A stretch of DNA of 64,000 bases from Fragilaria crotonensis (Eukaryota; Bacillariophyta; Fragilariophyceae; Fragilariales; Fragilariaceae), in NCBI GenBank assembly GCA_022925895.1, contig JAKSYS010000150.1, positions 41,238 through 105,237 of the forward strand. The letters are read 5' to 3'. Position numbers and translations under genes: made by a program. This document shows positions 33,154 through 61,852 of this stretch, in pieces. Positions within the stretch are counted from its first letter, which is position 1. Each line of letters starts with the position of its first letter. Under the pieces are notes generated by a model that worked only from the letters and a program-made list of their open reading frames with translations, had not been told where the DNA came from and ran no database searches.

Positions 33154-33970
33154 GTCAACTACGTTCTGAATGGCTGTTAAATTCTCGTTGGAAGAGAAGA
33201 TACTCCTGATAAAGTGAGAAAATGCCAAATGATAAGGCAATAAACGAGGTATTCAGAGTATCTCAATCGAAGAATTTGTGCGCCTTTCAATTTTAAAAAG
33301 TGAGAATGTGTATTGGTATTTAGTATGATGGGATATGTTCGAACGAAATGGCACTCAAACTAACAACACGTTTGAAAATCATTCGTTTTGTGTTCTGTCA
33401 ACTGAGGATGACGGGCGAGCCGATGATGTGACTCGAATTCCCCGTAGAAAATGTAGGAGCCGCTGCAGTACCGCTATTGGCGCACGACCCGTACGCCTAC
33501 CAATAGTATGTGCGAATCGCGGATTCGAGCCGCGTTCACGACTTGACTCTGCCTAGACAACTGTGTTTCGTTTTCAGGTGAGCTGCCTTCATCTATGATG
33601 ACCTGGAAAGCTCTATACTGGCAGTACTGTACAAACTCGAGGTCTGACGTTCATGGCGAAGATGTCGAGAGCATACGTAGCATATCAATCAAAGTGAGTT
33701 TCTCTTCAGAAATGTTGTTGAGGTGTTAGGCGCAGATATCGATGAATAGCACCCAGATGTATGCATACGGCAAGGCATTGGGAACGACGTACGCAGATTT
33801 GCTCCGCGATCCCAATGACGGATGGTCTTCATTTTTCTAGGATGCTTTCATTCTAGAGTTCACAGCATCTGGGAAAGATGATGCCATCCATTATTACAAT
33901 CAAAAACTTAACATAGTCCGTTGTTACCTGCCGATCTAAATCACTCGCCGGTTGTAGCGAATAAAACTCT
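33154..33970. other. intergenic between ankyrin genes A and B
   Basis: 5' region of gene A, including CCGTAGAAAATGTAGGAGC at about 33442, also found upstream of gene D near 63690. About 33600-33900 is a decayed copy of the shared 3' flank module (CAAGGCATTGGGAACG, and AGGATGC then TTCATTCTAG). No gene seen. Confidence 0.5.
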
Positions 33971-35791
33971 TTACATCCGATGTGCACATTTGCGTCTACT
34001 CCTCTCGTCTGCCTCACGGTGATGCAAAGAACGCTTGGCGTATTCCTCCAAGCATTGTACAATCTCATGCATCTCACACATGCGGGCAAGATCAAGAGCA
34101 GTCGAGCCTGCTTTATTCTTTACTTTCGTATCCACGACGTCGTGTTTCAATAGCATGCAAACAATGTCCAATCTGCCTTGGAGGCACGCCCACATCAGGG
34201 CTGTGCAACCAATTTCATCTTGAGCATGCATATCAATCTCCTTGTGTCGCAACAACTCGTCAACAACATCGCAGTGTTCATCCTTGACCGCCCATAGCAA
34301 GGCGGTGCGACCACCATGATTTCTGGCTCGCGCAAGCACATTGCGGTAAGAAGAAGGTTCGGCATCCCAGAACAAGTTGTCGTTCTCCAGTAAAAAACGG
34401 GTGCAACCTCGAAGACTTCTAGCGTTCACTTCCAACTTGTGCTGTTTCAGTAATTCGCAAACAACGTCCTAGTGGCCGTTTGCGCAGGCGACAATAAGGG
34501 CAGTGTAACCGTAATAATCACAGGCGTTCACATCCACCTCGTCGTGTTTGACAAGCTCACGAACAACATCGCAGTGGCCCTCCCTACATGCCCAGAGAAG
34601 TGCCGTGTCACCATTCGCATCAGTCGCGAGTAAACCCACCTTGTCATGTTTTACCAACTCACAAACGATATCCGCACGTCCTGCTCCACTTGCACAAATA
34701 AGGGCGGTTCGCTCCCATGAATCCCTTGCATTCACATCCACCTTGTCGTGTTTCAGTAACTCACCAACAACATCACAATGGCCTCTTTTGCTTGCAATTA
34801 TTAGGGCTGTGTTCCCACAACGTCCCCGAGCATTTACATCCGTCGTGTCATGTTTCAGTAGTTCACGAACAACATCACACGTGCCATGAGCACTTGCCAT
34901 AAAAAGGGCAGTGCTGCCATTATCCCCTCTTGCATTCACATCCACCTCGTCATGCTTCAGTAATTCACGGACGAGGCGGTCGTGGCCTAGTGCAGTTGCA
35001 AGTAAAAGGGCAGTGAAGTCATGGTAACCTCTTGCATTGACATCTACCTCCTTGTACTTCAGCAAAGCACGAACAACACGACAGTGGCCCTCAAGAGTGG
35101 CCACAATGAGGGCTATGTTGCTATTATTGCCAACATTCAAATCCATCTTGTCGTGTTTCAATAATATACGAACGATATCATAGCGGCCATTCCGACTTGC
35201 CTCAATAAGGGATGTAGTGCCAAAACTTCCCGTAGCATTCACATCCACCTCGTTGTGTTTCAGTAAGTTACGAACAATATCCCAGTGACCAGACAAACTT
35301 GCCAAGATAAGGGCTGTGTCGCCCGTACAGCGGCTAGCATTCACATCCACCTCGTCACGTTTCAGTAACGCCCCAACGACATCACCGTGGCCTTCTTGAC
35401 TTGCCAAGGTAAGGGCCGTGTGGCCATAATCGTTTCTAGCATTGACATCCACCAGTTTTCGCTTCAGCAATTCACAAACAACATTACAGTGGCCCTGAGC
35501 ACTTGCCATGATAAGGGCAGTGTCGCCATTATTGTTTTTCGCATTAACGCCCACTTTGTCATGTTTTAAAAGTTCACAAACCAAATCACAGTTGCCCTTT
35601 TCACTTGCCGTTATAAGCGATGTGTTACCATAATCATCTCTTGCATTCAGATCTGACTCTACGATTTTCAATGACTTGCAAAGTGCATCCAAATGAGGAG
35701 CATTTGTACCGGCGTCGATGAGATCTGTGCTGACATTTCCACTAGCGACAGCAACATTCAACAAATCTGTCTCAAGAACTATGTCATCCAT
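33971..35791 (-). pseudogene. ankyrin-repeat protein B, interrupted by an in-frame stop
   Basis: From the ATG at 35791 (MDDIVLETD) the frame runs through about 13 ankyrin repeats to a TAG at 34469-34471, placed exactly where paralogues have a residue after GH in the first helix. The same frame continues for about 165 codons with intact repeats, ending in a basic tail (EERSRRKCAHRM-like). One base change (for example from a Trp codon) explains the stop. A 440-residue truncated protein could still be made. No catalytic domain is seen. Upstream codons SIVSSNENTIVVAD match the pre-repeat region of genes A and C and are separated by a stop. Confidence 0.7.
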
Positions 35792-37159
35792 CCCGTTCCC
35801 TACTTCCTCAATCAGCAACTACTATTGTATTCTCGTTGGAAGAAACGATACTAATGATCAAGAGGCAATACCAAATAGTAAGAGGACAATCAACGAGGCA
35901 CAGAAAGATGTCATCAATCGAATGAGGATTGAATGTAATGAACGCCCCGCGAAACACGACTGAAATAAACGTATTCCGTCGATGCCTTGCAATGTGTTTG
36001 TTGACGACACAACGACGACGCAGTTTAACATTGTCTGATTCCATTTTGTCACCCACAAACTCATAATCTGTGCATGGTACAATCAGCAATCTTACCTCAA
36101 TGGAAGGTGGTATGACAAAACAAAGAGTAAACAGAACATCTAAAGGGTAATTGGAATTCAAGTCGTCGTTCCTCTATCATACCACATAAAAATGGCTTGG
36201 AACCAATAGTTTCACAAGAGTTTTAAATTACTATATCTCCGTAGAAACATAAATGTTCAACGAACAGTTCTTATATCATTGATCCTTCATCTGCTTGTCA
36301 ACAGCAATGAGGAATGATCAAAGTACTGGAGCAAGATCCGAATTGCCTATCGATGATATACAAGTCTTCGTTTTTCATTTACTGGCTCAAAGTCGTGTAT
36401 AAATATAAATACATATATATATAATATTTTATATTCCGTTCTTTATATTTTTTCACAAGAGTTCGATGAGTGAATCGTCAATCGAAATTCGTATTGGTAC
36501 AGGGTTTTGTACGAGCTGTTTGTACCACACAGTGTAGAACGAACGCCAATGGAATTCTCTCAAACGTATGAAAATATACAGAACTGTAGCTTGTAGAAAT
36601 TGGGAGGCATCCTCGACATGTGAAAATGGTCGTGCAACAATGTTTTGACGTCTCATCTACAGTATGCGTTTTTTAGAGAATTGAGCATTTAAAATGCTTT
36701 TCTATCAGCAGAACATATCTCTATTGGTTATCTGAGGAGAGCTTTATAATAGGTCACGGTGTGAAATAATGGAAAATGGATTGTTTTTGTGTAGAGTTCC
36801 TTGAATTTCACAAGAGATTGGTTCAAAGCCAATTTATCGGGTCAAAGCCATTTTTATGTGGTACTCGATGTTGCCAGCTACTGGGAGGTCCGGTAAAATG
36901 ACGTTTCTTCTCGTAGCTTCTACATACAATTAATACCAAGCAGAGGTGCCTGGCGTGACCTTCCCTGTGGAACTATCATACCACAGGTACTCTATCATCA
37001 TATACAACATATATGTATGAAAATGGATATACCGGTATCTATGATAAAATGCAAAAATCGGGTCTTAGGTTTCACCAATTTGACGTCTTTTTCTACTTGG
37101 GGAGCCCGTTCATGTCCTCCAATCGAGCCGGCCATTACCTGCGTTACCGTACGGGAGTA
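35792..37159. other. intergenic, AT-rich, carries an inverted-repeat element
   Basis: No gene. A MITE-like element occupies 36180-36863. The AT-rich core at about 36400-36450 (TATATATATAATATTTTATA) is the lowest-GC point of the region. Confidence 0.5.
36180..36863. mobile_element. MITE-like inverted-repeat element, TA flanks
   Basis: Left end TACCACATAAAAATGGCT (36180-36197) and its exact complement at 36846-36863 delimit 684 bp. The inverted similarity extends inwards, through GAACCAAT and CACAAGAG blocks. The right arm has an extra internal copy of the TTGG-CTTTGAACCAAT segment. The terminal TA could be the target duplication. No coding capacity. Confidence 0.65.
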
Positions 37160-37362
37160 CTGACATCCACCTTGTCGTTATTCAGCTTTCAGCAACTCAC
37201 AAACGACATCACAGCGTCACAGTAGCCCTTACGACTTGCTTCTATCAGGGATGTCTTGCCGTCATGGTTGATAGCATTGACATCCACATCTTTGTGTTTC
37301 AGCAACTCACGAACAACATCACAGTGCCCCTCTGAGCTTACCTTTATAAGAGCTGTGTCGAT
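37160..37362 (-). pseudogene. isolated ankyrin-repeat relic
   Basis: About two ankyrin units are recognisable on the minus strand (TGACATCCACCTTGTCG and TTGACATCCACATCTTTGTG on the plus strand), with small internal duplications near TTCAGCTTTCAGC and CATCACAGCGTCACAG. No start or stop of a gene. It is a remnant left by rearrangement of the family. Confidence 0.75.
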
Positions 37363-38398
37363 TGGCGCTGTCTTCTGTCATTCTGTGTAGTGGATGGTGA
37401 GCATGCACGTGAGTGGCGACCAAGATTTTGCAGGTGATGAACATGTGAATTGGGAAATGGCTTGTAGGGCATGAGCTATAGCTCGTCAGTTCGTCCTCGG
37501 GACATTTCACAAATGCTGCGAACGATGTGATGTTTTCATACCCACAATCGAATCAAGCAAAGCAGCCATGATCCCTCCCCCCTCCTTGGTGCGTAGTGGT
37601 GTTGTGCAACGACGGTGACAGCCATGGAGAACAAATACAAGAATGGACGTCAAGGGCACCAGCCCAGAATTACGAGGTTTCTGAAAACCCGAGCGAGGTG
37701 GCTTGTTTGACTGGATTGACTTGCCGGAGATTTTGGACGCAATCAAGAGGTCCAGAGAACTCCGATACGACGTGAAGGGCATGAAGTTGGAGGTCATGAA
37801 GTCGAGCATGTGATTGGTTTCATGTCATTCATGTATACTTCGACTTTTGCTACATGTCATCTTGCAGCACCAATGTTCGAAGTATTGGTAAACAAGGAAG
37901 GCAAGAATTGATTGATGCAGAGAGATGGGGTGATTCTCATCATCGGGGATGAGCATGGCAGTAGCAGTTAGCTGCACAATACGTTCTGCTTTGGAAATGC
38001 TACAAGGACGTCGGTCACCAACAGAAATGGGGGTGTATCCAGATCACAATGAACGAGCAAACGACTGATGCAAAAATTCACAACAAGGCATTGGGAACGC
38101 TCACTGCATATTTGCTCGATCAATGGCCCTCCATCCGAGGTGGTGGCTCGTTGTAAAGTTCTGGGATGCTCTCATTCTAGCGTTCACAGTTTCGGGCAAC
38201 GACGTTACCATCACATTTTGAAAAATAAAATGTTATACGCCGTCTGGTTCCTGCTTTAGAGCGCTACGTCCTCGTGAACCATGTCCGTGCAACCCCTTGC
38301 TCATGGTCTCATGCCCTAGCATTCGATGTTTCTCAGTAACTTTCTTTCCGAAATCCTCCGATCCCAATCCGTTGTCGTCCACAGTGAATCAAGCTTCT
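37363..38398. other. intergenic, shared ankyrin 3' flank module
   Basis: About 37640-38250 matches about 29770-30380 and, more weakly, 33600-33900. The best-preserved portion reads as decayed coding sequence (KALGTLTAYLLDQWP). No intact gene. Confidence 0.5.
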
Positions 38399-40827
38399 TT
38401 AATTCAATCTGCGCCTTTTAACTCGACTACTTCCTTCTGCCTCGCGGTGACGCGAACAACCCATGTTGTGTTCCTCCAGGCATTGTGCAATCTCATACCT
38501 CCCACACTTTCGGGCAATTTCCAGAGCAGTCGAGCCCGCTTTATTCTTTAACGTCGTATCAACATTGCCGTGCTTCAATAGCAGGCTAACAATGTCCAAT
38601 TCGCCTTGGAGGGACGTCCACATCAGGGCTGTCCAACCAATTTCATCTTGAACGTTCACATTCACTTCCCTGTGTTGCAGCAACACGTCAACAACATCCC
38701 AATGTTCATATTTGATTGCCCACAACAAGGCCGTTCGACCACAACGATTTCTGGCGTTCCCATGCACCTTGCGGGGACGACAGGGTTTTGCATAGTCTTG
38801 CGCAAACATGTTGTCGCTCTCCAATAAGAAACAGGTGTGACCTTTAAGACTTGTGGCATTCACGTCCACCTTGTCGTGAAAAAGTAACTCGCAAACAACT
38901 CCCAAATGACCATTCACACAGGCGACAATAAGGGCAGTGTAACTGTAATTATCACTGTCATTCACATCCACCTTGCTGTGTTGTAGCAGCTCACGGACGA
39001 CATCGCAGTGGCCATTCCTACTTGCCCAGAGAAGTGCCGTGAAGCCATGAACATCGGTCATGCGTAAACCCACCTTATTGCGGTTTAGCAAATCGCGAAC
39101 AATATCCAAATGACCTTCTCTACATGCAATCATTAGGGATGTTTGCCCGAGGCGATCTCTCGCATTCACATCCACCTTGCTGTGTTTGAGTAACTCACAA
39201 ACGACATCGCGATGGCCCTCCCAGCATGCCAAAAGAAGGGCTGTGCAGTCATCTTCATCTCTTGTATTGACGTCCACCTCTTTGTATCTCAGCACCGCAC
39301 GAACAACATTGCTGTGGTTGCTAACGCTTGCCAACAAAATGGCTGTGTTGCCAAATTCATGCCCTGCTCTAACATGCACCTTGTTGTATTTCATTAACTC
39401 ACGAACGACCACACACCGACCTTCTTCAATTGCCACTCTAAGGGCGGCGTAGCCAACATTATACCAATTCGATTTGGCATCCACCTTGTCGTTACTGAGC
39501 AACTGACGAACAACATCACAGTGACCTCTGGCGCTTGCCACGGTAAGGGCTGTCTTGCCATCGCCGTTGCTAGCATTGACATTCACCCTTTTGTGCTTGA
39601 GCAACTGACCAACAACATCACAATGACCTCTGGCGCTTGCCATGATAAGAGCTGTCTCGCCATCACCGTTGGTAGCATTGACATCCACCCTTTTTGTGTC
39701 TCAGCAACTCACGAACGACATCATAGTAGCCCATGCGGCTTACCCACATGAGGGCTGTGCGGTGCAAGTGGCAACTAGCATTCACATCCACTCGGTCATG
39801 TTGCAGTAACTCATGAACGATCTTAATCCAGCCATTTTTTACTTGCCACTATGAGGGATGTGTAGCCAAGTAAACACCTTGAATTAGCATCCACCTCGTC
39901 GTGTTCAAGCAGCTTACGCACAACTTTCCTGTGGCCAAACACGCATGCCATGGCAACGGCTGTGTTGCCATCACTGTTGACGGCATTCAAATCCACCCTT
40001 TCATGTTTCATTAATTCGCAAACAACTTCAAGCAGGCCTCTTTCACTCGCTGTTATGAGGGCCGTGTTGTTCAATTCATCTCTTGCATTCAGATCCAACT
40101 CTCTGATTTTCAGCAACTCAAACATTACCGTCAAACAACCAGCACGGCATGCTTCGATGAATGATGAGTTGATTAATCCACTTGGGATTCTCAAATAGTT
40201 CTCACTATTCTGAATTGCTGTTGTATTCTTGTTCGAAGAAGAAATATTTGTCTTCCTAACCGTGCCATCAAAAGCAATGGACGTTCGCAATCCCTCCCAG
40301 AGCTGCTCAGGTGTTATGTCGACGGATGTATCTTGGATTCCAACTTGCAAACGTTTGATCTTGATGGGAGTGTCCTTGGCTCCGATGGATCGAATGAGTT
40401 CAGGAGTCGACAAGACGGGAACTCCTGATTCAGAAAGTTCCGTCAACTTCCTGTCAAGTTTAGCCAGAGCGGCAGAACATAGGGTACGGGGATTGTTCCG
40501 GACGATGACACCCTTGGCCCGCTCGCGCAAATGCCGAAAGACGGCATCATTGCACTTTGCGGCCAATTCGTTATCGTTTCCCAGAACGTCATCTTGGTAC
40601 TGAACGATGGCAGAGAATCCTCCGTTGTCAGTAACACAACGTCCAATCAGAGTGGAATCGCGACGATGATCAGTCTCATCCGTGTCTGTAGCGCCACGGG
40701 CTTCCAAAATTGGAATGTACCTTTGGGTAACGTCAGCTGTTGGAGAAAGAGGATCATAGTCTCCAATGTGAGTTGTGACGGATCTGAGGAGTTCGCGATC
40801 CGAGTCGTCGGTACAACGTGTGACCAT
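38399..40827 (-). pseudogene. ankyrin-repeat protein C with a distinct N-terminal domain, two one-base frameshifts
   Basis: The ATG at 40827 opens a ~200-residue non-repeat region (MVTRCTDDSDREL... to SSSNKNTTAIQN) of unrecognised family, the only N-terminal domain seen in this ankyrin family here. Ankyrin repeats of 34-residue period follow to 38399, ending in a basic tail KRRRLN that could be a nuclear signal. The frame is lost twice, each at a homopolymer. The T run at 39835-39840 appears one base too long. So does the T run at 39691-39695, where a neighbouring repeat has four T. Without these two bases the gene would be about 810 residues. It is either recently broken or an assembly artefact. 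Confidence 0.7.
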
Positions 40828-41326
40828 GATGAAAAAATGAGCCACCAAGAAGGCGCCAACGGTGACTAATCGACTAATCTTTTGTAACGCATCAGAGATT
40901 AGACCATTCAGTAGAACTTACGCAGTCGTGGGTGGTATGTAATGGGTTTAGTCGGAGTAATGGTGGGTGGGGCCGTGGGGACCACTGGGTGGAACCTCTC
41001 GGAAAATGCGATTGCTTCCGGTCACGCAGTGTCACTATTGGCGCCCAATGAAGGATACAGCGTAAAATTTATACCAGAATTACTGGAGCTAAGATTGAAT
41101 TTCGCGGTACGGAAACTGTGTGCACTCGAACCGCCGCATTGGAGCTATGGCTGGGTACAATATCAGAGTGACTCAAGTAGGCTTAGTAGGCTTTCATACA
41201 AAAAAAATAGTACGAGATTTCAATACTGCCACTACCGTAGACAAATGGCATCATTGAAGACGCATGTCATAAAGATTTCAGTTTCGACACCAACAACACA
41301 AACGCAAGAATCATGAAGCGCGACGA
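40828..41326. other. intergenic, no gene seen
   Basis: Holds the 5' region of ankyrin gene C and the 3' end of the DDE transposon remnant. No transposon terminus could be identified. Confidence 0.4.
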
Positions 41327-43163
41327 TCATGCTTCCGTATCGCCCTGAGGACGAGCATCGTTAAGGAATACAGCCTTACAGAAGCTGCTGTCGAAGTCCA
41401 TGGCGCATCTATGTGTCTTGAATTCTTTCAGCACCTTTTCTACCTTCCCTGGAGACGCAGAGTCGTCGTCGATGCCGGAGTCCATTGTTGCTGAATTGGT
41501 AAGTTGCTTGTGTCGTATTTTGTGATATGCTTGCATGTATGCTCGGGCGCGTTGTGAAAAGAGTCGTACTCGCTCTGTTGTCACCACATTTCGTGAGAAG
41601 CATGCTCTCACTGTCCTTCGGAAGTTGTCCTTTCCGCGCTTGTCCTTCAGAGGTTGTCTTCGATAATGATTCTTGGCGCATCCCCATGCATATTCAATCC
41701 CCTCTCCAGCCAACTCACAATGGCATTTCGGAGTTCGATCCATAAATACGCCCATCTCCGTTGCCTTGAGTTGAAGCATCGTTTCTTGGCCCTCAAAGTC
41801 CTTGAGGTTTGACATGAGGTAGCGAAGGCTTGTGTCTTTTCTGAGTGCTCCCATCGAATCTTTTTTACCATTAACCGTATAGGTTCTTCGATCCTGACTG
41901 GGATCAATCCATCCACGCTCCCAAAGAATCTGCTCCATCCCTTTGCTTTTCCTTCCCAGCCTTGAAGCACATCTTGTTTCTGGTAAGTGAGTGAGATGCC
42001 TGCGCGTTCTGCCATGTTCCTGATATGTTTCTTACTTCCTTTGCATTCTCAATGCCTCGCTGCCGGAGCAGCTCAATCAGCTGTGGCTTGGTGTGCTCCT
42101 TTGTAGTAACCGTCGTTACGAAATGATCTTTCCTCGTTTGCTCTTGTTCTTCTGGAGTCATCCAGTATGGCCCGTTGTCTGTGGAACGGAAGACCATAGA
42201 TTGAACGTCGCCCACATTGAGACTGCGGTTGTGTGGTCCAAGGTATCCATCTTCACCTTTGATAATGCTATCTCTCATGATGTTTTGCTCACCCCGTATC
42301 CCTTGTTCATTCCATCTACTCGCAGCGCATCTTCGGGCATTCTATCGTGACCGCATGAGTGATCAAATAGGAAAAGGAAGTCGTACTGGGGATACAGAGT
42401 TGTGACAACATCAGCGCAGTCTTCCAATTGAAGGACCATTGAATCGTATGTCCAGTATCCTTCTGCAGACGCTCCATACTCGAACTCCAGAACAAAGGGA
42501 CTTATGGTAAGTGGCTGCTTGAATTCGCTTCCTCGTTTCTTCTTGGCCGCCGACTCATCCTTGTATTTCTTTCCAAGTCTATTAGCATTCACGCGTTGGA
42601 GTTGTTCGGTTGTTAGCGACACTCCAAACCCAAACTCACGTGAAGCAAATCCGACATCATCACTCCAAGGCCATCGTCTTTTGGTATCAGTGCCTGTTCG
42701 CGATTTGGCCCAGTCCAACTCTTGTTTGTAAATGAATAGTACTGTTTGACAATGCATTCGTCTTGACCGAACGAAATGACAGGGCGCTCATCCGGATTCA
42801 TTCGCACGCTGAGATTTCCGCCAAATATACTAGTTTGTTCGTTCATGCAATCCATGAATCCTCGGCAGGTGTCAACATGATACTCCACCATTGCTTTTCC
42901 GGTAAGTTCGTCGGTGTACTTGTATCCGCTGCCCTTTGTGACTTTGCCTAACGCTTGCAGTTTCTCCGCCTCTTCCAGACTTACTTGAATCCACCGAAAC
43001 ATTCTGCGCTCAAGCGATAGATATCGGTCGCAGAAGTCCCACCGATATTGAACTGTTGCCTTCCTTTCATGTCCGTCAACGTAATATCCCTTTCGACGTG
43101 TTTCATATCGAAATCCTAGCTTCAACATCCATTGGTAAGTTGTCTTACGACAGAGACAGCTTA
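41327..43163 (-). pseudogene. DDE-type transposase, 3' part, split by a Harbinger insertion and frameshifted
   Basis: Minus-strand frames from 43163 to 41327 give the body of a DDE transposase. It starts with a helix-turn-helix end (RKTTYQWMLKLGFRY) and the hallmark GYYVDGHER. Catalytic acids are Asp in SFGQDECIV, Asp in FLFDHSCGHDR and Glu in GEGIEYAWG. I recognise the family (VDGHER, then PKDDG, CHCELAGEGIEY) from DDE endonucleases of diatoms, fungi and cnidarians, but do not assign a superfamily name. Frameshifts occur near 42640, at the C run 42292-42295, near 42010 and near 41940, so no active enzyme is made. The 5' part continues at 47072. Confidence 0.8.
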
Positions 43164-43190
43164 GACCGGTTCTTAGCGGGGACACAAACG
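43164..43190. repeat. Harbinger left terminal inverted repeat
   Basis: Begins GACCGGTTCTTAGCGG and ends GACACAAACG. TTA precedes it. Confidence 0.85.
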
Positions 43191-43389
43191 CGGCACACAG
43201 GCAAAGGGACAAAAAAGTCTCATGTGGGGACGGGCGTGCCCACACGAAACTTCCGACGTTTGTGCCACGGTGCTTAGCCAAAAAGGGCGCCCTACTTTTC
43301 GAATTCAAAATCTGAAAACTGGGAATCCCTACTGTATTGTACTGAATTCCGACCGTACGAGCCATTGTGATACCAGATGCGACAGCAAA

Positions 43390-44946
43390 ATGGATCCATA
43401 CTTTTTTGCAATGTCGCGTACTCCTGTTGTTGCTGCTGTGGACTCGGCATCGTCTGCTGAGGACGCCTCCTCCTCCGCTGCGTCTCGTGTCGGGACGATC
43501 ATCAACGTCCCTCCAGTGGGCGACAATTTTGACAGCGCCGAGAACTTCATTGATAACTATGCACTTGATGGTGAGGGTGGTGGTGACGACTACACCCTCT
43601 GCCAGAAAATGGTACATTATTGCGGCGGAGGGATCGTTCCAGAGCACTGGCCTGCCTGCAAGGCAGTTCTCATCTTCCATGCTGGCGATGGACTCAGCAA
43701 ACTCAGCACAATGGCAAAGGCTGTCAAGGAAGCTGCAATGATGCAGCTCTACACTTCTGCCATCGCGGAACTTGATGAGATTCACTTCGGGGACAGTGCT
43801 CGAGTTTTCTTTACGAAATCGTTTCAAAGGAAAGATGAACAGATTACGGGGCTTTCGTTGTATCGTTACTACCTTGATTCTCGTGCAAAAATGAGGAACC
43901 ACCTCATTCCTCTGTTTCCAAAAGACCTTGTGTCCATGAAGTCTGGGAAAGGATTTCACGAATCCTGCAATGATGTTTTTGTAAAGGCGTTTCGTGATGA
44001 ACAGTCTTTACTCAAAGTCAAGCGCGGAAAGGAGTATATCCCGAATTACACAAAAGCAGAGATTGATGCCTTGGTTCCTCCTTATATGTGGGAGTATAGC
44101 AAATCTCCGTGGTTTCTTGGATTGTGCATCAAAAATTTTCGTCGTAATCCTCACCTTGCTCCAGATGTGGCAAAAGTCATGAAAGATGTTACTAACGTTG
44201 CAGTGTCTAGGGCTGCAGCGTCTAGCACCAAGGCTGTAATGACAAGAAAGAAGCAGCACCACGACCAAGCTCCCATCACAAATGGAGGAAGCAACAATGC
44301 TGCGAGTCTCAGCACTCCAGCATCAGGATGGAGTGCTGTCGGAACAAGCGTTGGTCCCACACCCACGACTGCTGGTGTCGTTGAAAATGCAACCACAAAG
44401 AAGCTTCTCTGGGCGAAAGTGCTGATTTCCAAGTCGCAGGCCGAGAACACAAACATTGCAAAACGAATGGGGAAGATGGAGGAATTGGAGAAAGCAATGA
44501 TCTTGCTTGACAAAATGAGACCAGTTATTGGCGAGGAGCAATATTTCGCAAACGTGAGGAGTGTATTGGCGGCTTTTCCTGTTTTTGCGACATTTGATGC
44601 GAAAGTTGACGTCGTTGATTTGTCGACTGACGACGACGACAATGCTCCTGTTGTGTCCACCACTGCTGCTACAGATAGTTTCTCTACTCCGCAAGCGGTG
44701 GCCCCTGTTAAGAATGCTTCCACGAAGAGCACGAACGACGAGGACGACGACGTAAGTGTTGAAGAGCCATCGCACGAACATGTTACGACACACGCTTTGC
44801 TTGCTGTGCTTGATCGCTCCGCTCTCGAAGGAGAAAGCGACTACACGGACGATGAATGGGCCGCTTATTTGAAGATCCAAAAGGAAAAGGAGCGTCGTCT
44901 TCGTGAGGATGATGACGCCGACGCAGCACAAACAAACGAGCACTAG
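43390..44946 (+). CDS. Harbinger accessory protein
   Basis: From the ATG at 43390 (MDPYFFAMSRTP) the product is 518 residues. It has a Ser/Ala-rich start, a conserved-looking globular core (residues about 45-290, with CQKMVHYCGGG and GDGLSKLSTMAK), a low-complexity middle, a short coiled coil (about residues 345-385) and an acidic, Asp-rich C terminus. I recognise no Myb/SANT domain, which is the usual partner in plant and animal Harbingers. Position inside the terminal repeats and opposite to the transposase make it the element's second gene, presumably for DNA binding or nuclear import of the transposase (inference). An open frame extends upstream to 43222 through the end region, but ATG 43390 is preferred. 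Confidence 0.75.
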   Translation: MDPYFFAMSRTPVVAAVDSASSAEDASSSAASRVGTIINVPPVGDNFDSAENFIDNYALDGEGGGDDYTLCQKMVHYCGGGIVPEHWPACKAVLIFHAGDGLSKLSTMAKAVKEAAMMQLYTSAIAELDEIHFGDSARVFFTKSFQRKDEQITGLSLYRYYLDSRAKMRNHLIPLFPKDLVSMKSGKGFHESCNDVFVKAFRDEQSLLKVKRGKEYIPNYTKAEIDALVPPYMWEYSKSPWFLGLCIKNFRRNPHLAPDVAKVMKDVTNVAVSRAAASSTKAVMTRKKQHHDQAPITNGGSNNAASLSTPASGWSAVGTSVGPTPTTAGVVENATTKKLLWAKVLISKSQAENTNIAKRMGKMEELEKAMILLDKMRPVIGEEQYFANVRSVLAAFPVFATFDAKVDVVDLSTDDDDNAPVVSTTAATDSFSTPQAVAPVKNASTKSTNDEDDDVSVEEPSHEHVTTHALLAVLDRSALEGESDYTDDEWAAYLKIQKEKERRLREDDDADAAQTNEH

Positions 44947-45149
44947 CTAGTACTAGCTAGTTGAACTGCTCGTCCTCGCGGCTTCGCTCTTCTACTACTA
45001 ATACTAAAGTCTGCGTTTCTTTTAAGAGCCTGATCCGCCCTTGTCGTATAGTACTAGTACCGCATCAATCAACCAGCAGCTACTCGTACTACTAAGAAGT
45101 TCGTTATACTATTTGTACTAGTACTAATTCTTAACAGCAATCCTCATGC

Positions 45150-46778
45150 TTAATTGATACCGCCAAACTGATGGTGGTCTACAAGCGCTTGTGTTACTTG
45201 CGCCCAACGTGCAGCCCAAGCCCCCTTGTTTGCGACATTTACTGGTCGCTGATTGTCATACTCTAACTCTGCGTCAACCGTGTCGTCTTCCCCGCGGTTC
45301 CAAACCCCGGCCGTACCGTTCCATTGATTGGCATAAATGTTGCCAAATTTCTTGAACAATCTAGCCTCAACACCACCAGGGTACGGTGCGAGATCTGCAG
45401 CCAACCATCCATCACGTTCCAATAACATGTTGTGCAACATACAGCATGTTACAAAAGCATTGTCAATGTCGGATTGTTGATGCAAGTTGTTGAAGTTCTT
45501 GAGGAATCGAAATCTCTTCTTCAAGATTCCGAACACTCCTTCAATATCCTTTCGGACGGACTCAAGCTTTGCACTCCACTTCATCACTGGACTGCCAATT
45601 TCCCCCTTCTTCACTGGCGAAATCAAACACGGCCAGCGATGGTAGCCGCCATCGCAAATTAAATAAACACCAAAGAATTGTACTTGCTTACCGATAGGAC
45701 CCGTTGCTTTCCAGGCTTTTGACTGAAGCCATCCATTGCCTTCCAACAATTCCATAACGGAATTGTCAGTTCTAACAATATGCTTGTCGTTTCTGGTCCC
45801 TGGGTGTCCAACGGAAACAGACTGAATAAATTTGCGAGACGTGCAAATGACTTCATAGGCAATGGAGGGAAATCCCTCCTTGCCAGTGTACATATTATGG
45901 TACATGCTGGGACATTTGTCCCATCCCACGTGAACGCAGTCAACGCTGCCAACACAACCCGGAAGCCCCCTCGCAGAGTACTCACCGACAACGAATTCAA
46001 ATTGTTCTTCCGTTTTAGGCATGTAGATGTACTCTGTCGAGATCGATGACATCCTTGACAACCACAACAAAAAGAATACTCGATGCACCTCTTCGCTCAG
46101 GTGAGTCTGAACACTGACCTGGTACTGGGAAGCACCAGTACCAAGCACATACAACGCTCCAAGTACCTTCAACTCTAAGCTCGACACAAGCTTTCCTGCA
46201 TTGCAAACTTTATCAGGCGTCCAGTCACGCCACCACCTCTCCTTTGACATCTGGACCAAGTCCACAAATAAATTATAAGGGACTCGAAACAACCTGCGAA
46301 ACTTCTTCGCATCTCGTCCGTGAGGGTCGGCAATGTACACATCTCGGAGTGCCGGATTCAAATAGTCGAGCGACCAAGTGCTTTCTGCTTGCGGTTTCCT
46401 CGCGTACACGTTTCTCGTCTTCTTTCGCACCGGCGAAGCGTGTTCCTCCTCTTCTTCCTCCTCAACAGGAGTGTCAACATGATTGTTCCACCAGTTTCCG
46501 AATGTACTGCTGGTGGTGCTATTGTCGTCGTCGTTGTCAAATAGTGACAATGCATCGTCCTTGTCATCGGCAAAAAACAAAACGAAGGACATCTGCAGCA
46601 CCAGCAGATGTCTTCGCCATGAGACGAGAAAGAAACGAACCAGTTGTTGCTTGTTGTTGCTGGTTGGTGGAAGTTGGCGCCATGCTGCTGGCTGGCTGAT
46701 GGACGATGATAGGAACAAGTTCTTGAGAGATATGAGAATAAATACTATATTGGAAATGCGCGCAAAACATGACACCAT
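45150..46778 (-). CDS. PIF/Harbinger transposase (DDE)
   Basis: 542 codons from the ATG at 46778, or about 480 from the ATG at 46592 (MSFVLFFADD). The later start leaves an acidic N terminus (poly-Glu, residues EEEEEEE) typical of these proteins. The DDE_Tnp_4 core has Asp in GSVDCVHVGWDK, Asp in LICDGGYHRWPCL and Glu in DIEGVFGILKKRFRFL, followed by the usual CCMLHNMLLERDGW. All catalytic residues and spacing are intact, so the enzyme could be active. It would cut at the terminal repeats and integrate at TTA/TAA. Confidence 0.9.
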   Translation of the reverse strand: MVSCFARISNIVFILISLKNLFLSSSISQPAAWRQLPPTSNNKQQLVRFFLVSWRRHLLVLQMSFVLFFADDKDDALSLFDNDDDNSTTSSTFGNWWNNHVDTPVEEEEEEEHASPVRKKTRNVYARKPQAESTWSLDYLNPALRDVYIADPHGRDAKKFRRLFRVPYNLFVDLVQMSKERWWRDWTPDKVCNAGKLVSSLELKVLGALYVLGTGASQYQVSVQTHLSEEVHRVFFLLWLSRMSSISTEYIYMPKTEEQFEFVVGEYSARGLPGCVGSVDCVHVGWDKCPSMYHNMYTGKEGFPSIAYEVICTSRKFIQSVSVGHPGTRNDKHIVRTDNSVMELLEGNGWLQSKAWKATGPIGKQVQFFGVYLICDGGYHRWPCLISPVKKGEIGSPVMKWSAKLESVRKDIEGVFGILKKRFRFLKNFNNLHQQSDIDNAFVTCCMLHNMLLERDGWLAADLAPYPGGVEARLFKKFGNIYANQWNGTAGVWNRGEDDTVDAELEYDNQRPVNVANKGAWAARWAQVTQALVDHHQFGGIN

Positions 46779-47041
46779 GATTTTGAATTCAAATTGGATA
46801 TAATCCCAGGACTTTCATTGGTTAAGAAAATATGTTTGTGTCACGAGGCCGACACACGAGATTGCTTCTTCGACACACGAAACTCGCCTTTTTTGGCCGA
46901 TTTCGTGTGTCGAAGTCGAATTCTCGTGTGTCGAGCATCGACACAAACCAGAATTTTCCTGTTTGTGTCGCATTTGTGTCCCGCTAAGGGTATCAAAAAA
47001 ACGGTATTCTCATTTTTTCGGATAAACTATTTATTTTGTGA

Positions 47042-47068
47042 CGTTTGTGTCGCCGCTAAGGATCGGCC
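47042..47068. repeat. Harbinger right terminal inverted repeat
   Basis: Complement of the left end with four mismatches. TTA follows at 47069-47071. Confidence 0.85.
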
Positions 47069-47071
47069 TTA

Positions 47072-47560
47072 AGCCGTACTCTTGGAACAGATTCAACTTC
47101 TCTTCTTCAAACTCACAATTGATTATTTCATTCTGTCCTTGCAGGCGTTCCATGACAAGCGATTTTACAATTGTATCGTGAAGATACGAATGCATCATCT
47201 CGACTGAAAGTTCAGTAAGATTCGCGCGGCCATACTCTTTTATCACAGTAACGACAATAGGATGTGCCTCTAGGAAAGCAGGTAAGTCTATGTTGCCCTT
47301 TCTCTTGATGGAAAACAATTTCTTCTTACAAAACTGAACATGCCATCGTCGCAGAACTTTTTTCGTTCGTTATGTATTTTATATGAACGGCAGCAAGTTG
47401 ATCGATTGCATCACGGCAGCAATCATTCCACTTCTTGAATGGCATCTCCTCAATGGCAACACGGTAAGCCTGCGCGAGGTATCTTGCTTTCATTCTTATG
47501 TCCTCTTTCTTGTGCTCACTCATTGTGTCCTCGTCATCCTCAGAATCCAAACCTCGACAA
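47072..47560 (-). pseudogene. DDE-type transposase, 5' part
   Basis: The frame ending LNLFQEYGL at 47072 is the upstream part of the transposase broken at 43163. Removing the Harbinger and one TTA joins the two sides in frame. Further upstream, KKVLRRWHVQF and the fragment with MKARYLAQAYRVAIEEMPF (47326-47550) continue in another frame, so at least one indel exists near 47370. The N-terminal region fits the DNA-binding part of the same family. Confidence 0.7.
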
Positions 47561-47683
47561 TTGTTTTGAAGGCGACAGCAGATGAGTTTGCGTTGTCGAG
47601 GACGGCAATCAATTCCTCAACTCGGTCGAGTACAGTCTCCTTGTCTTCGGAGGCATTAAAAGCTTGAATGCCAGTTTCGACTG

Positions 47684-48433
47684 TCACCAGATATTGCATC
47701 CTGGAGGAAGCTGGGGCTTTGTGTCGGACTCTTGTTCCGTCTTTATCGTTATGCTGGTCGGCGTCTCCTGCTCATCTCGATTGCTGCTGCTACTAGAAGT
47801 ATGATTGGAAAGACGGCATGCTGGTAATACTTGTTCGGTATGCTGACTAGTTGTCGGAGTAGAGTCTTGACAACAAAGTCTTTTAGCTGCTCTTTCAACC
47901 TCTTCTTCTTTATTTTGTCGTTTACACTGGATTGCTTCTTGGTTCTTTGCGATTGACACCAAGTCAATTACATCGGGCGGAAACTGCCGTTGTTCTTTGT
48001 TTCGGGTCGCACGTTCCAGTGCCCTTATGTCATCCATCATATCTGGGATAGTGGCAAACCAAGCCTTTCCTAATGATGGACTCTGGACATGATTGTTTCC
48101 ATTTGGATCACACAGATAGTAACAATGATTTCTTTGCTTCGTATCTTTTGGGCGGTAGGTATCGTAATAGATCCCAAACTGGTTTGGAGCTGACTTTTCT
48201 GCCTGCATATCTAGCTTCAATGCCGGATCTTTCAACAAAGCATTATTAAGATCATTGGCATTGAATTGTAGGGGCTCTGGAATTGTAAACCACTCATGAC
48301 AGAGTGCAACAAGGTGGTCAGCAGTCCGCCACTTGTGTCGGAAACGAGTTTCACGACAAAGGTACTTTACGGAGCTTCTGATGAACCGATACCTTTCTCT
48401 TGGGTGGAGCCAAATGGATGACTGCATTCTCAT
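47684..48433 (-). CDS. hypothetical protein, probably part of the DDE transposon
   Basis: 249 residues from the ATG at 48433. Not a family I recognise. It has a basic N-terminal helical region, an aromatic segment (RNHCYYLCDPNGNNH) and a Ser/Thr/Gln-rich low-complexity C terminus. Same strand and directly upstream of the transposase 5' part. An open frame just past its stop (about 47690-47530, with SEDKETVLDRVEELIAVLD) may be its continuation after an indel. It may be a second transposon gene or the transposase N terminus. Confidence 0.45.
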   Translation of the reverse strand: MRMQSSIWLHPRERYRFIRSSVKYLCRETRFRHKWRTADHLVALCHEWFTIPEPLQFNANDLNNALLKDPALKLDMQAEKSAPNQFGIYYDTYRPKDTKQRNHCYYLCDPNGNNHVQSPSLGKAWFATIPDMMDDIRALERATRNKEQRQFPPDVIDLVSIAKNQEAIQCKRQNKEEEVERAAKRLCCQDSTPTTSQHTEQVLPACRLSNHTSSSSSNRDEQETPTSITIKTEQESDTKPQLPPGCNIW

Positions 48434-50094
48434 ACAATTGAAGAAGGGAATAGACGCTTTGGCTCCACCTGATAAGCACTCAAAGATTGGAAATGAGCGA
48501 CGGCGTTTTCACCATCGTCGAGAGACGGTCCTCGTGTTGTTTGTGCGGAAAAATAATGGCGCGAAGACATCGGACGGCGCGTTTTTGACGTCACGTACTA
48601 GGGTTACACAGAGCTACAAGAAGATATGTATGTACACATCAGAAAAAACAATTATGACTGCACCCTCTGGTGTGTTTGAAGTTTGAATACTATGACCCTA
48701 AAATGACTGCCTGTCTACGTATGTCAGATGTCAGACCTGTTCTTATATACGTCGGCAGAGAAAACGAAAGTGAATTCTTGCAGGCTCTCATTCGCACGGT
48801 GCTGTCATTCCATACGTATAAACACAAAAATTGTTGACAGATAGGAGGTTCCGGAATTTCAGCTTCTATCCTAGTATTTCTTCTACAGGGGCTTTTGTGT
48901 ATGAGATTTCCACGTTAAACGGACAAAATACATTGATGAAATAGGTTCGAGGTTGTTGGTATTCGTAGGTACTTCCGTACAATGGACAATTAACATTTTC
49001 TGATTTGACGGATTTTATTACATAAGAAGAAACTCCGCAGATTTCTTTCTCCGTATTTCTTCCTTCTACTTAAGCAAATTTGAGCTTCTTCAATTTTCTT
49101 CTAATTTCTTCCTTTCTCTCCTTTTTTTCTAAACAGCTTCTTCTTTTTTCTTCCTTTCGCTTCCTTTTTCTTACTCCGTTGCACGTAGTAGAATTTTACT
49201 TTCGTTGATACGAACTCGAACAAATATATATGTGGCCTACATGAAATGGAGATTAGAGTTGCGAGGTATACAGTTCTCTAAAAGCCGAATTTAGACCATG
49301 CGACACCTTTCTCCAAATGAGCGAGTAGAGCTTCTCTCTTTTTCTCCTTTTTTCTTCACGGACTTTTTCCTTTCTTCCTTTCTCTTCTTTTTTCTTCTAG
49401 ATTTTTTCCTTTCTTTCTTTTGCTTGCTTTTTTCTTCCGGCGTTTCTATGACTTGCATATAAATCAACGGAGTTGTTTCCCTCTTCACGTTTTCAATTTC
49501 GGTTGATGTACTAGGTTATCACGTCCTGGCACGCAGAAAAAGAAAAAACCGGTTTTGAAAAAAGTCCTTAAACATGAAAGAAAAACTAGTCCGAAAACAA
49601 ATATTCCGGAACCTCTAGAAGTCACATCGTGAAAGGAAAAGACAACTATTCTGAAGGACGATCTGTCTGCCTTATGAGTAAAAAAATTATTATCGATAGT
49701 CAGTAATGTCACATTCATCATTATGAGACAAAGGAACTATATCTATGTGTTGTTTCTACAACGAATGATGGAAGATTAAATGAAATTCGTGTAGAACGGA
49801 TTTAGAAGAGGGGAATCCTAAGTACGTCATGAATCGGTTGCAAAGCAATGTCATAGAAAGTTCGTCCGTGGTAAGAAAATCATGTGAATGCTTGTGGAGG
49901 AGGACCTTTTGAATGCCACAATGAACTTAACACCAGACATTTTTGTCCTACCGGGTAGGACAAAAAGATTTGATTTCCGAATCGCCGAACCCATTTTGTC
50001 CTCTGGCGGATTTAGCAATAGGACAAAAAGTAACCTTAAAATCACGGGTTAATGAAATTTAATACGGCAAGTGCCGTGTTAATGTCGATAACAA
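48434..50094. other. intergenic with pyrimidine-rich tracts and a hairpin
   Basis: About 49020-49190 and 49315-49440 are almost pure C/T on the plus strand (TTCTTCCTTTCTC-like). A hairpin with 11-bp arms TTTTTGTCCTA/TAGGACAAAAA lies at 49940-49966, and a looser GTCC/GGAC pair follows at about 49994-50029. No gene seen. Confidence 0.5.
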
Positions 50095-52258
50095 CCCCGT
50101 TATCTGGTTGGCTCACTCGCCGCTGTATGTCGCAGTGCAAATGTCTTGCCAAAAGCCACAGCCCCCGGCCAGATAATTTCTGTCGATCAGCTCAAGAGCT
50201 CAACTCCCGGACTCGTCGCTCAAGCCAAAGGCAAGCCCACCAGAGCGCGTTTCACGTGCGCGACTTTGTTCGTCGACCATTTCAGTCGCTACACTTACCT
50301 CCACATGCAAACGTCAACAAACGCAAACGAGACATTGGCCGCCGAGCATGCTTTTGAGTTCCATGCCGCATCCTTCGGCGTCAAAATTTGCCACTACCAC
50401 GGCGACAACGGACGCTTCTCCGAAAAAGTTTTCAAGTCGGATTGTGAGAGACAAGGTCAGCGACTTTCCTTTTGTGGTGTCAACGCACATTTTCAAAACG
50501 GAATTGCTGAACGTCGCATCCGAGATCTACAAGATCGTGCCCGAACCATGATTGTGCACGCCAAGCATCATTGGCCGGATGCAATCACTTCCAACCTCTG
50601 GTCGTATGCGCTTTGATTGGCAAATGAAGGCAGCCGATGTGTGCCGTTGTTTGACAATTGCAACCCAGTGCAACTCTTTACTGGTCGAGATTTTCAAGTG
50701 TCACCACACCAGCACCTCCACCCCTTCGGATGTCCGATTTTTGTCCTTCGAGACGGTCCAGCATCAGGCCAAAAGGGATCCAAGTGGGGGGAGCGCGCTC
50801 GCTGTGGCATCTACTTGGGACTCAGTCCTGTCCACGCCAGCTCTGTGCCTCGTAATGTCGCTAATGACAGGCGGGATGGTATCCCCACAGTTTCACGTTA
50901 GGGCTGACAAGAACTTCGAAACTGTCGCAACCGTCGTCGGGTCCACCAATCACATGCCCTACAAATCCCAATGGCAAGACATTAACGGTTTTTCCAGACG
51001 CAAAGCCAAGGATTTCAACCTGAAGGCCACCCTTTCAGCTAAACTACCTGCACGTGTGGTGGTCACCCTGACCATTACAAGATTTTCCAAGACTACTTGT
51101 ACTGCACTGAGGGAGGAACATGACATCAACCAACACTGCCTGGGTCCAAGGCAATATGTCCCTGTACACCGAGTTATATACCCTCCAACACCAGGTGTAC
51201 CTGCATTTGCGTCCGCACCCTGTCGCTCAAACGATGCCGGCAATGCAGAGGATAGTTACATCTCGGATGACACTCTTGACATGCCACGTTTCTTGCCCCC
51301 TGCACAGCCGCCGACATGGCTCCATCCGTACCACGTCCTCCTAATGACCGTGACCATGATGACCACCACCCTGTTCCAGCTGGCATCCCCATCATTACTC
51401 CCGCGCCTGCGGTGCACCTCCCAAACCAGTGCCCTCGTCGCACTACGCGTCCGCCACGCCGCCTCATTGCCTCCACGGCAGCCATGCCTGTTCGTGCATT
51501 CGGTGAAGACCCATCCACCTTCCTCACGGACATGGGGGAGCACATTCTGCAGGAAGCCATGACCGATCCCATTGCTTTTAGTGCCACTTCGGACCTACAT
51601 AGTTCCAAATGGCAATGCGCGACGAGGTCCACGCCCACGAAAGTTGCAAACATTGGAAAATGGTCCGTCGTACTGCCATTCCTATCGGCACCAAAGTTTT
51701 GCCATCTGTCTGGTCCATGAAACGCAAACGTCGCATCGCCACTTGCAAGATCTACAAGTGGAAAGCCAGTCTAACTGCCCATGGGGGAAAACAGACTCAC
51801 GGCGTCAACTACTGGGAAACATATGCCCCAGTTGTAAACTGGACATCCATCCGGCTTTACCTGATCCTGGCATTATTAAACAAGCATCACACCAGACAAA
51901 TTGATTTCGTCCTCGCCTACCCTCAAGCTGATGTTGAATGTGATATCTAAATGGAAATTCCACAAGGTTTCGAACACAACGGACAAAATAAAACGCACGT
52001 CCTCAAGTTGCTCAAGAACAACTATGGAACAAGGCAGGCAGGTCGTGTTTGGAACAAGCATATCCACGCCGGTCTCATCGAACGTGAATACCGCCACAGT
52101 ACCGTTGATCATCATTGCGTATACTACAAGGGCTCCACTGTGTTTTCGCTGTATGACGACCAGATGCCATTGAAATCGACGCTCTAATTGCCTCCTTGAA
52201 GAAAGACCCCAAGTGTCGCACATCGTACGACATCACCGACGAGGGAATACTCAGCAAT
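50095..52258 (+). pseudogene. Ty1/copia (CoDi-type) retrotransposon fragment: integrase and reverse transcriptase
   Basis: From about 50110 an integrase core is readable: IISVDQL, FVDHFSRYTYLHMQ, HGDNGRFSEKVF with the second acid, and FQNGIAERRIRDLQ with the third. A TGA at 50614-50616 stands where a CGA arginine is expected. After a degraded Pro-rich linker the reverse transcriptase fingers and palm follow (WSMKRKRRIATCKIYKWKA, NYWETYAPVV, RQIDFVLAYPQADVECDI). A TAA at 51948-51950 interrupts that frame. The YVDD region is damaged (SLYDDQ followed by a frameshift). No LTR is identifiable. The fragment stops at the palindrome 52259-52283. Confidence 0.8.
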
Positions 52259-52283
52259 GAGGCGGAGCTCGGAGCTCCGCCTC
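52259..52283. repeat. palindrome at the junction of two convergent copia fragments
   Basis: Arms GAGGCGGAGCT and AGCTCCGCCTC are separated by CGG. Plus-strand copia coding ends on its left and minus-strand copia coding ends on its right. Confidence 0.85.
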
Positions 52284-53400
52284 AGTTGAACCCTTTGTCC
52301 CAAGCGGCAGGGCATAGCATACACTGCTCCCTTTCCAACAAGAGACAATACACCGCCGGTGCGACTTGGCCTATCTGGATGCATCGCGTAGTATGATGTG
52401 TCGGCCCACCATTCGACAATGTTGCTTCCGTCGGCTGCCACGGTTAGTGGCATGTTCAAGGTTGCTCGCAAATACTTCATCATGCGGGCCAGCTTTCAAA
52501 CCACTACAAAGAAAAGCGACAGTTGGCTGTAGTAGCTACATCGGGTCTCGCACGTTTACATAAGAACAGTAGCGTGGCCGTTTGTTGTGGAAGAAATCAG
52601 TTGTCTCCAAGTCCAGCTTGTCACAATCATCAATAACCTCAAAGTGGTAGTTTGGCTGATAGTGGCATTACACAGTCTCTGTCCAGCATGTCCTCACCTG
52701 GCAACTCGTTGAGCATTCGCTCCCTGCACGTGGTCGTCGATCATTGAGAACCGAACTTTTCCGTCAACCGAGAAATCGATTGTCATTCCAAGATGCTCGT
52801 GGACCTTTCCATGGGTCTTGGTCAGAGGCGCTTCCTTTCTGAACTCGGCCTCAATCATGCATGTCGATGATGTTCGTCACCACTTCGGGGTCGTCGTGGG
52901 AAATCTTGTGGTCGTCGACGTGCCACAAGATTGTGCATTTTTTATTAATAACTTTTATTGACAGCACAGAAATCATAGGGATTGGATGTGAATCCCTATT
53001 TTGCCAGTTGTGACAATAGTCGTTGCCAGAAAAGGAGGACCGCCCTGAGTGTTTGGTATAAAGCCTTTTTCAGGACATCAAAGAGCACCGGCTTACCACC
53101 TTTGTCGTACATGGCTGATGTACTTCTGGTAGAGGTCAGGGTTGAGGCGCACCACGAGTCGTTCTGCCATCTTGCCGTCATGCCCCATGATGTGAACTGT
53201 GGACAAACTTGTCCATGCCGTGTCCGCCTGCATGAATGCTCCAGTGATTCTGATGTTCGCGATGTATCGCTCCACACCAGTCGCCGCTTGATCAGGTCGC
53301 AATCATCATTGAGTTTTGGTGCGTGACCTTCGACCGTCCACGGTCTGTCCACAGTTCGCCTGCTGCAACATTTCAACACTATTGCTTTTTTCTTGCATCA
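52284..53400 (-). pseudogene. second Ty1/copia fragment: reverse transcriptase and RNase H
   Basis: Read on the minus strand from 53400: QADTAWTSLSTVHIMGHDGK, then LKKALYQTLRAVLLFWQ (palm), then ILWHVDDHKISHDDPEVV with the catalytic Asp pair near 52920, then the RNase H region with CKRARPDVATT, MKYLRATLNMPL and ADGSNIVEWWADTSY. Frameshifts separate these blocks. It is related to, but different from, the plus-strand fragment, so two elements are involved rather than a simple inverted duplication. Confidence 0.75.
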
Positions 53401-53674
53401 CATATGCTGCAAATACTTTGCTTTGATGTTGACCAAGACAATGCAGCACCTGCCTCACGGTGCAGTGAAACAAAATTTGGCACAAAAAGAGAGGTACTAG
53501 GCAAGACAGTGTCTGAAATATCCACTGCCAGCACGCGTGCTGTTATACGTCACAATGCTTCAACTCCCGGCAGGACATGTAATTCTTGGAGCATCAAACG
53601 TCGAAAGAAAAAACACGAGCTTATGATTGACCCGTGGTGTTGTGGCAGGATCTCTTTGATCTTTCCCAACATAG

Positions 53675-54740
53675 CTAGGAATAGCTCCAGCCTTGTTGAC
53701 CCAAGGGATGTGCGTCGATTCTTGGCATGCTAGAACCCTGAATAATGGAAGAAGAGAGCCTGTTCCAACACAGCTGGGGGGCAGTGTTGATTGTGGTGTA
53801 ATGTGTGATGCGACAAGACGATCTCACTACTGTCGTACGCCTTTGTTCGTCTGCCAGTACCATTATCCGCGTCGCCACTCGCTTCAAATCCGCCCTGATG
53901 AGTGGCTCGTGGACTGCAATCCAATTTTTGTTGACCCACAGGGGTCGACCGAAATGCTCCGTAACATCGGCGTACATTAGGTTTTGTACCTCCGTACTCA
54001 GCCGCGCTCGATAATCTTATAGTTCGCGTAAGGTCCTATGCACCTCTCTCGTCTCGGCTTGTGCGCGAGAGCGTGCATCCTCCTCCCCATGGAGATCTCG
54101 GTTCCGACTTTCCCACAGTGCCCACCATTGATCCCATAACAGCCCAATAATATGGACTTGCCACCTTTGACCCGTGTGTTTCTTCTTCTTTTTCTTATTA
54201 TATACTGCTTCCGCATCCTTTTGTGCATAAAAGGTATCCTGGACATCACTCCACTCATTGCTGAACCGCCCCAAAAACTGTTGGTGCCAACCAATTTCAT
54301 TTTGTTGCCGAATGAGTTGATGGACCTCTTTTGGGTATTGCTGGGAATTGAGGGTGTAATCGTCGTTAACGTGGCGGAACCAACCGGTCAATGCGTCGCT
54401 TAACACTCGCGTCAGCAATGGACGCGTTTGCAAGGACTCACATTTCGCCTCCAACGTTGGAATGACGTGGACCCTCCAAGCTCGTCGACTTTCGTGCGGG
54501 CATTTGATAATGTGACTCCAGTCTTCCTCGGTAGTGTGACAAAGAGGGCACTTGTTTCGGGTTGGGTCTCTCCGGTGTACCTGTTTCCCTCTTGGAAGGA
54601 TCCCGTGAACTAATTTTGTATAGTGTGTCTTCCGCTGGAGCTTCCTGCGCAGACTTGATCCATGAGCTTTCCAATTGACGTTGCCCATCACGTTGTCCGA
54701 CCACCCATACCTTTCTTGGATGTGTTTTATTGTCGTGGTA
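53675..54740 (-). pseudogene. second LINE-like relic, C-terminal region
   Basis: Minus-strand frame from about 54738 (IKHIQERYGWSD) through the Cys/His motif CPLCHTTEEDWSHIIKC to about 53675. A TAA at 54017-54019 interrupts a single frame where relatives usually have Tyr; after it the frame resumes with LSTEVQNLMYADVTEHFGRP, a typical end of these polyproteins. Same family as 3629-4638 (shared NW-K-H, CPLC and IGW-Q motifs). The reverse transcriptase is absent, so the copy is 5'-truncated. Confidence 0.7.
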
Positions 54741-61726: not shown

Positions 61727-61852
61727 TGAGCTCGCGGTATGCTCAAGCAATTGCCTCAACCCTGGGAAATGGAAACCAAAAGTGTGCATTGGTATGAGTC
61801 TAGGTAAACATGATGTACAATATTTGGTGATGGGCCATGAGCCATGACTTAC
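61727..61852. other. intergenic, with retained splice-donor-like site
   Basis: Between ankyrin F and the clpP exon fragment. GTAAGT (minus strand, 61847-61852) follows the fragment exactly where clpP exon 2 ends. Confidence 0.5.

Follow-up and report, generated by a model that had tools for sequence, protein, structure and literature searches.

A PIF/Harbinger-type transposon lies inside the reading frame of a different transposon in the window (the whole stretch of DNA that was analysed, 64,000 nucleotides, on contig C59 of the 62.1-Mb, 881-contig assembly that we searched). Almost certainly, the arrangement arose when a two-gene, cut-and-paste PIF/Harbinger element inserted at a TTA in the frame of a resident, different terminal-repeat transposon (the host) and duplicated that TTA. 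The structure, the ends of the element, the duplication, the empty sites in sister copies of the host and the order of the two events are shown by the sequence comparisons. The nesting had been proposed in a first-pass annotation of the window; the observation is confirmed and the interpretation placed on it is supported. A light-harvesting protein encoded in this eukaryotic genome has its best PDB matches among fucoxanthin chlorophyll proteins (6ly5_A and 6l4u_5, both from Chaetoceros; 297 and 293 bits), which points to an alga whose antennae are of the fucoxanthin type, most probably a diatom.

Boundaries and target site of the Harbinger element

The element and its flanking features are as follows.

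43164..47068: PIF/Harbinger-type element, 3,905 bp (ends alike at 23/27 bp, TTA flanks; a relative on contig C226 has homologous ends)
43161..43163: left TTA target-site duplication (a single TTA in four sister host copies)
47069..47071: right TTA target-site duplication (a single TTA in four sister host copies)
43164..43190, plus strand: left terminal inverted repeat, 27 bp (end comparison; 28 identical bases at C499:6344-6371)
47042..47068, minus strand: right terminal inverted repeat, 27 bp (end comparison)
46964..46990, minus strand: the end motif repeated in a subterminal position, CCCTTAGCGGGACACAAATGCGACACA, where the transposase may bind

A complete, TTA-flanked Harbinger element had been annotated at 43164-47068. 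When left ends between 43050 and 43299 were scanned against right ends between 46900 and 47199, the pairing of the terminal 27 bp (23/27 identical) gave the top score, equalled only by a one-base shift of that pairing, and a TTA stands outside each end, at 43161-43163 and 47069-47071. Joining the flanks with one TTA restored ...EYGLSCLCRKTTYQW... in one frame through the codons GGC-TTA-AGC, which bears out the proposal that the target was a Leu codon.

A genome-wide search with the Harbinger end pattern (up to 3 mismatches) returned six matches, and none with a reversed control. The six were both ends in the window, both ends of the C226 element, one end on C12 and one on C499. The C226 element (4,886 bp) starts and stops at the homologous bases and has TCA on each side as a 3-bp duplication. 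Taken together, the pattern search and the homologous ends on C226 indicate that the boundaries at 43164 and 47068 are right; Harbinger copies with different ends, which the annotation held would refute the nesting, were looked for, and the nearest relative instead ends at the homologous bases. Where single Harbinger ends were found elsewhere, TTA precedes the C12 end and a weaker match on C151, TCA precedes a weaker match on C568, and TAA precedes the C499 end. Since TTA, TCA and TAA all occur beside the ends of relatives, the target site of this group looks like TNA. The relative on C568 also has an inner motif resembling the subterminal motif at 46964..46990.

Empty sites in sister copies of the host

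The host occupies the following positions.

41146..48623, minus strand: host transposon copy, both halves and the nested Harbinger element (aligned to the copies on C700, C346 (two), C549 and C100)
47072..48433, minus strand: part of the host frame upstream of the insertion, encoding the N-terminal half and broken by single-base indels (in sister copies it runs on into the other half without a break)
41327..43163, minus strand: C-terminal half of the host frame, split by indels (VDGHER, GQDE, FDHSCGH and GEGIEYAWG motifs)

The two halves encode one protein family, and at least 150 places in the genome (window included) match the C-terminal half. We fetched 30 of these loci (one being the window's own) and compared 18 at the DNA level. 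In seven of the 18 the alignment covers the DNA to the left and to the right of the insertion site, and all seven are continuous, with no insert; the other 11 gave partial alignments in which the site was not spanned. Five of the seven are close to the window copy (0.34-1.14% substitutions), and two belong to a distant subfamily, ~77-80% identical (~22% diverged). At the site itself, four copies read GGCTTAAGC, the two distant copies read GGCTTGAGC, and one of the two C346 copies (C346a) has lost two bases.

The copies on C700 and C549 and both copies on C346 have different surroundings, so these four are separate insertions. Given the divergence of 0.34-1.14%, and the differing flanks where these were compared, the sister copies are paralogous empty sites. 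The annotation had looked for its own refutation in host halves that are always separated; this was tested, and the seven continuous copies show the opposite. Its claim that the host was in place before the Harbinger arrived likewise holds: the nesting itself sets the order, host first and Harbinger second, and the sister copies lack the insert.

Eleven substitutions in the window host copy are absent from at least four of the five close sister copies (3,561 aligned columns), from which we infer a young host copy and, within it, a still younger Harbinger insertion. The argument for recency rests on the host copies, because the assembly holds no near-identical full Harbinger element. Separately, two ~1% divergent host copies (L034/L035, C346:33187-40290) point the same way, with 3.6 kb from one match to the next.

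Extent, ends and protein of the host

The span first annotated, 41327..48433, marks the limits of open reading frames rather than those of the element, and the host extends over 41146-48623. The window copy keeps its left end, TATGGCTGGGT, at 41146. On the other side the match ends at 48623; because the alignment halts ~25 bp short of where three full copies end, the right terminal repeat of the window copy is gone. In the three copies with both ends the host element is ~3.6 kb long, from TATGGCTGGGT to ACCCAGCCATA, and the outer TA of these ends may have arisen by duplication of the target or may belong to the element itself.

Both sides of the host adjoin repeated DNA. The 32-34 bp directly to the left (41113-41145) recur at 97-100% in eight places among the matches listed, and the host may therefore have a third repeat around it or next to it. 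Just to the right, a repeat of ~790 bp fills 48843-49630; its 19 near-full matches are 81-86% identical to it.

None of four host proteins searched matched a Pfam family above the cut-off (HTH_33 was found in one of the four with E 0.0016, below the cut-off), and the PDB gave chance-level matches only (E 0.94 and above). Motifs of the D/E type can be spotted by eye, and these may be of the Tc1/mariner/IS630 kind. The annotation had described two halves of a VDGHER-type DDE transposase on either side of the Harbinger; the two halves stand, and the term DDE drew no support from the Pfam and PDB searches. The host may resemble the TA-inserting Tc1/mariner/IS630-like elements in that its ends are readable as TA flanking TGGCTGGGT...ACCCAGCCA. 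It differs in having a much longer protein (~1,050 aa) with neither a Pfam family nor a PDB match, and we do not class it as a member.

Genes of the Harbinger element

The element carries two genes.

45150..46778, minus strand: Harbinger transposase, 542 aa, D280/D376/E413 (PF04827, E 8.7e-30; PF13359, E 2.9e-16)
43390..44946, plus strand: second Harbinger gene, 518 aa, open (open reading frame and homologues in relatives)

Both frames are open and the D, D and E residues are present, in agreement with the annotation, which had called both genes intact. A second possible start of the transposase lies at M63. Across the 29 loci fetched from the genome (a count in which L008 and L009 are the same element), D280 is conserved in 29/29, D376 in 27/29 and E413 in 29/29.

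The 518-aa second protein matched no Pfam family above the cut-off; with four homologues (three of them partial), no Myb family was found in Pfam at E<=1, and a profile of four rows gave no match in the PDB. Mere divergence may account for the missing Myb-like match. A single-sequence structure prediction of the protein core (mean pLDDT 42.7) was too poor to use.

The two genes face each other (convergent), and the same facing pair is found in 7/7 elements when the window is taken with the six best-matching relatives (C226, C218, C197, C151, C94 and C76); as the C197 and C218 pairs hardly differ from each other, at most six are independent. Both Harbinger genes are likewise present at another, degraded locus at about 200 kb on C197. 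No second gene accompanies a transposase fragment on C524 among the matches listed, and no transposase of the Harbinger group accompanies several fragments of the second gene (e.g. on C237 and C158), again among the matches listed.

Alternative explanations

Two other accounts of the nesting were weighed, and we consider both very improbable. The assembly is rich in repeats and has recurrent single-base gaps, and an artefact that wrongly joined two repeat families could be imagined in such a setting. The junctions, however, fall exactly at the terminal repeats and the duplication matches the single TTA of the empty sites, which a misjoin would not yield. It is just as hard to credit that the Harbinger was ancestral in the host family and was precisely excised from the other copies. 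Excision of PIF/Harbinger elements is usually precise according to PMC2836001, and the 2-bp deletion in C346a lies exactly at the site. However, this account requires loss from all seven compared copies, two of them of the ~22% distant subfamily, and C346a shows three A losses within 72 alignment columns, this deletion among them, as expected of noise. With two other A losses so near, we dropped the deletion as an imperfect excision footprint.

A different question is whether the host frame was still alive when it was hit. The rejoined flanks leave it open at the insertion site itself; over its full length it is split by single-base indels. All five other close copies are likewise split (C700 keeps 846 aa open and C346b 777 aa). 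The host copy may thus have been dead and frameshifted already when the Harbinger landed, so that the insertion killed nothing, a reading to which we give somewhat less than an even chance. It would be consistent with the several single-base coding indels of the window copy, three of which are shared with one or more close sister copies. Against it, C548, a sister of C231, shows three of the window gaps at identical bases; systematic run-length errors would behave in this way, so these gaps may be unreal. C231 itself (~22% diverged) retains an uninterrupted frame of 1,047 aa. The C100 copy has 20 interior gaps vs 6 substitutions. Recurrent gaps of this kind fit systematic sequencing error at short runs, and we therefore stop short of calling the host dead at the time of the insertion. 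Across the assembly as a whole (L037 and L061 are examples), distant copies share single-base gaps at identical positions in short runs, and frameshifts in this assembly need caution for that reason.

Our preferred explanation remains the insertion of a PIF/Harbinger element, with both genes open, into a TTA (a Leu codon) of the resident host frame. The insertion duplicated the TTA, and the element's own transposase would have done the cutting and joining, probably helped by the second gene. The event was presumably recent, postdating the spread of the host copies (~0.2-1.3% different from one another), and the Harbinger would come from an old lineage that has stayed at low copy number. Nothing in the sequence data shows present activity of the element.

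No empty allele of the locus was found in the assembly when the check proposed in the annotation was run. Contig C1 matches 38324-40843 at 97% and 37420-40843 at 94%, and departs from the window at 40843, near the start of an ankyrin gene. We rejected C1 as the other allele on the grounds of this departure and of the many ankyrin relatives, and read it as a paralogue. Queries with 48624-49800 and 49800-56500 returned, besides the window, only repeat-like matches and no clean allele.

The surrounding DNA has features of its own. A cluster of large ankyrin-repeat-like genes, with relatives on C1, occupies 30985-40827 and 57615-63314 (Pfam Ank families are shown for 30988-33153 only, and the remaining genes were judged by eye). 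The ~1.77-kb stretch at 54726-56497 is matched nearly in full at 25 or more other places (92-96% identity), several of which stand in even rows ~2.8-3.0 kb apart (e.g. five on C504). The stretch at 56530-57267 is common to loci with distant Harbinger transposases (L021 and L031).

Relatives and copy number of the Harbinger element

The nearest full relative of the element in the assembly is that on C226, whose transposase is 72% identical in amino acids and has two stop codons. Compared with C226, the window transposase gave dN/dS ~0.14 (dS ~1.4) and the second gene dN/dS ~0.17 (dS ~1.9); these are simple Nei-Gojobori counts over the aligned parts only, near saturation, and are rough. The left 301 bp of the Harbinger matched only itself in the assembly, and the right 129 bp matched, besides itself, only C568 (79%). 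The relatives on C218 and C197 are more distant from the window (54-58% amino acid identity) and are 98.6% identical to each other across 4.1 kb, which reaches the limits of the sequence compared (L004/L005). As this pair doubled recently, not every branch is single-copy.

The sole near-identical trace of the Harbinger in the assembly is a 28-bp left end on C499 (28/28 bases). It has TAA outside, followed by a repeat that contains direct repeats of 241 bp (95% alike); this repeat (within L080/L067, C499:1-7874) begins ~28 bp inside the Harbinger end and has a weak reverse-transcriptase match (E 0.0041, below the Pfam cut-off). From the Harbinger end to the start of the contig, no further part of the Harbinger was found on C499. 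The locus is possibly a second nested insertion involving the Harbinger family. On viral contigs, pattern matches were seen (16 and 4), with no confirmed relative of either transposase.

The likeliest reading is that the Harbinger lineage moves by cut and paste and seldom multiplies. A recent arrival of the element from outside, or a copy missing from the assembly, is a less likely possibility. It is also conceivable, if rather unlikely, that the lineage is long-lived and subject to strong purifying selection, that each branch retains one or a few copies, and that every element has, facing its transposase, a second gene from an undescribed non-Myb family. The nested pair also raises the question of how a paired-gene Harbinger could stay functional for so long while multiplying so little.

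Relation to known systems

Nested transposons are common, and the insertion described here is mostly ordinary in kind, an event of a textbook type in a clean setting. Its use is twofold. The nested pair cleanly defines two algal transposon families, since the seven paralogous empty sites fix the ends and the target of the Harbinger, and the nesting sets the order in which the two families arrived. The element or its nesting is named in no title or abstract opening that we found in the literature.

With the PIF/Harbinger superfamily (e.g. Ping/Pong of rice), the element shares a DDE_Tnp_4/Plant_tran transposase, terminal inverted repeats, a 3-bp TTA duplication and a second gene. The usual duplication in the superfamily is TWA; the TTA in the window fits this, whereas the C226 relative uses TCA. 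The second protein of the window differs in having no detectable Myb-like domain or other relative in Pfam or the PDB. PMC2836001 describes PIF/Harbinger elements as having two genes, excising precisely and using an extended target that surrounds the 3-bp duplication. Harbinger-like elements are reported from the diatom Thalassiosira pseudonana and the haptophyte Tisochrysis lutea in PMC2806351 and PMC5963040, respectively.

TA-C-TA and TA-G-TA chains

Non-coding DNA was found to be rich in chains of TA-C-TA/TA-G-TA, in the window for example at 1804, 10645, 24515, 44993, 45049 and 45116, and in the host copy at 42832 and 42741. TACTAGTA and like words occur ~33 times as often as an order-1 model predicts. 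TA-S-TA was counted 93 times vs ~46 expected from an order-2 model, and no excess was seen with A or T at the central position. The chains could be footprints of transposon excision. We do not claim this: TASTASTASTASTA occurs genome-wide 703 times per strand vs 2,239 for the reversed control, and among 30 non-tandem 3-bp indels the TA type was the commonest but numbered only 5, vs 4 for TG and 3 for TC. Close host copies differ from one another by steps from TA to TA-S-TA, and other dinucleotides show a weaker 3-bp rhythm as well.
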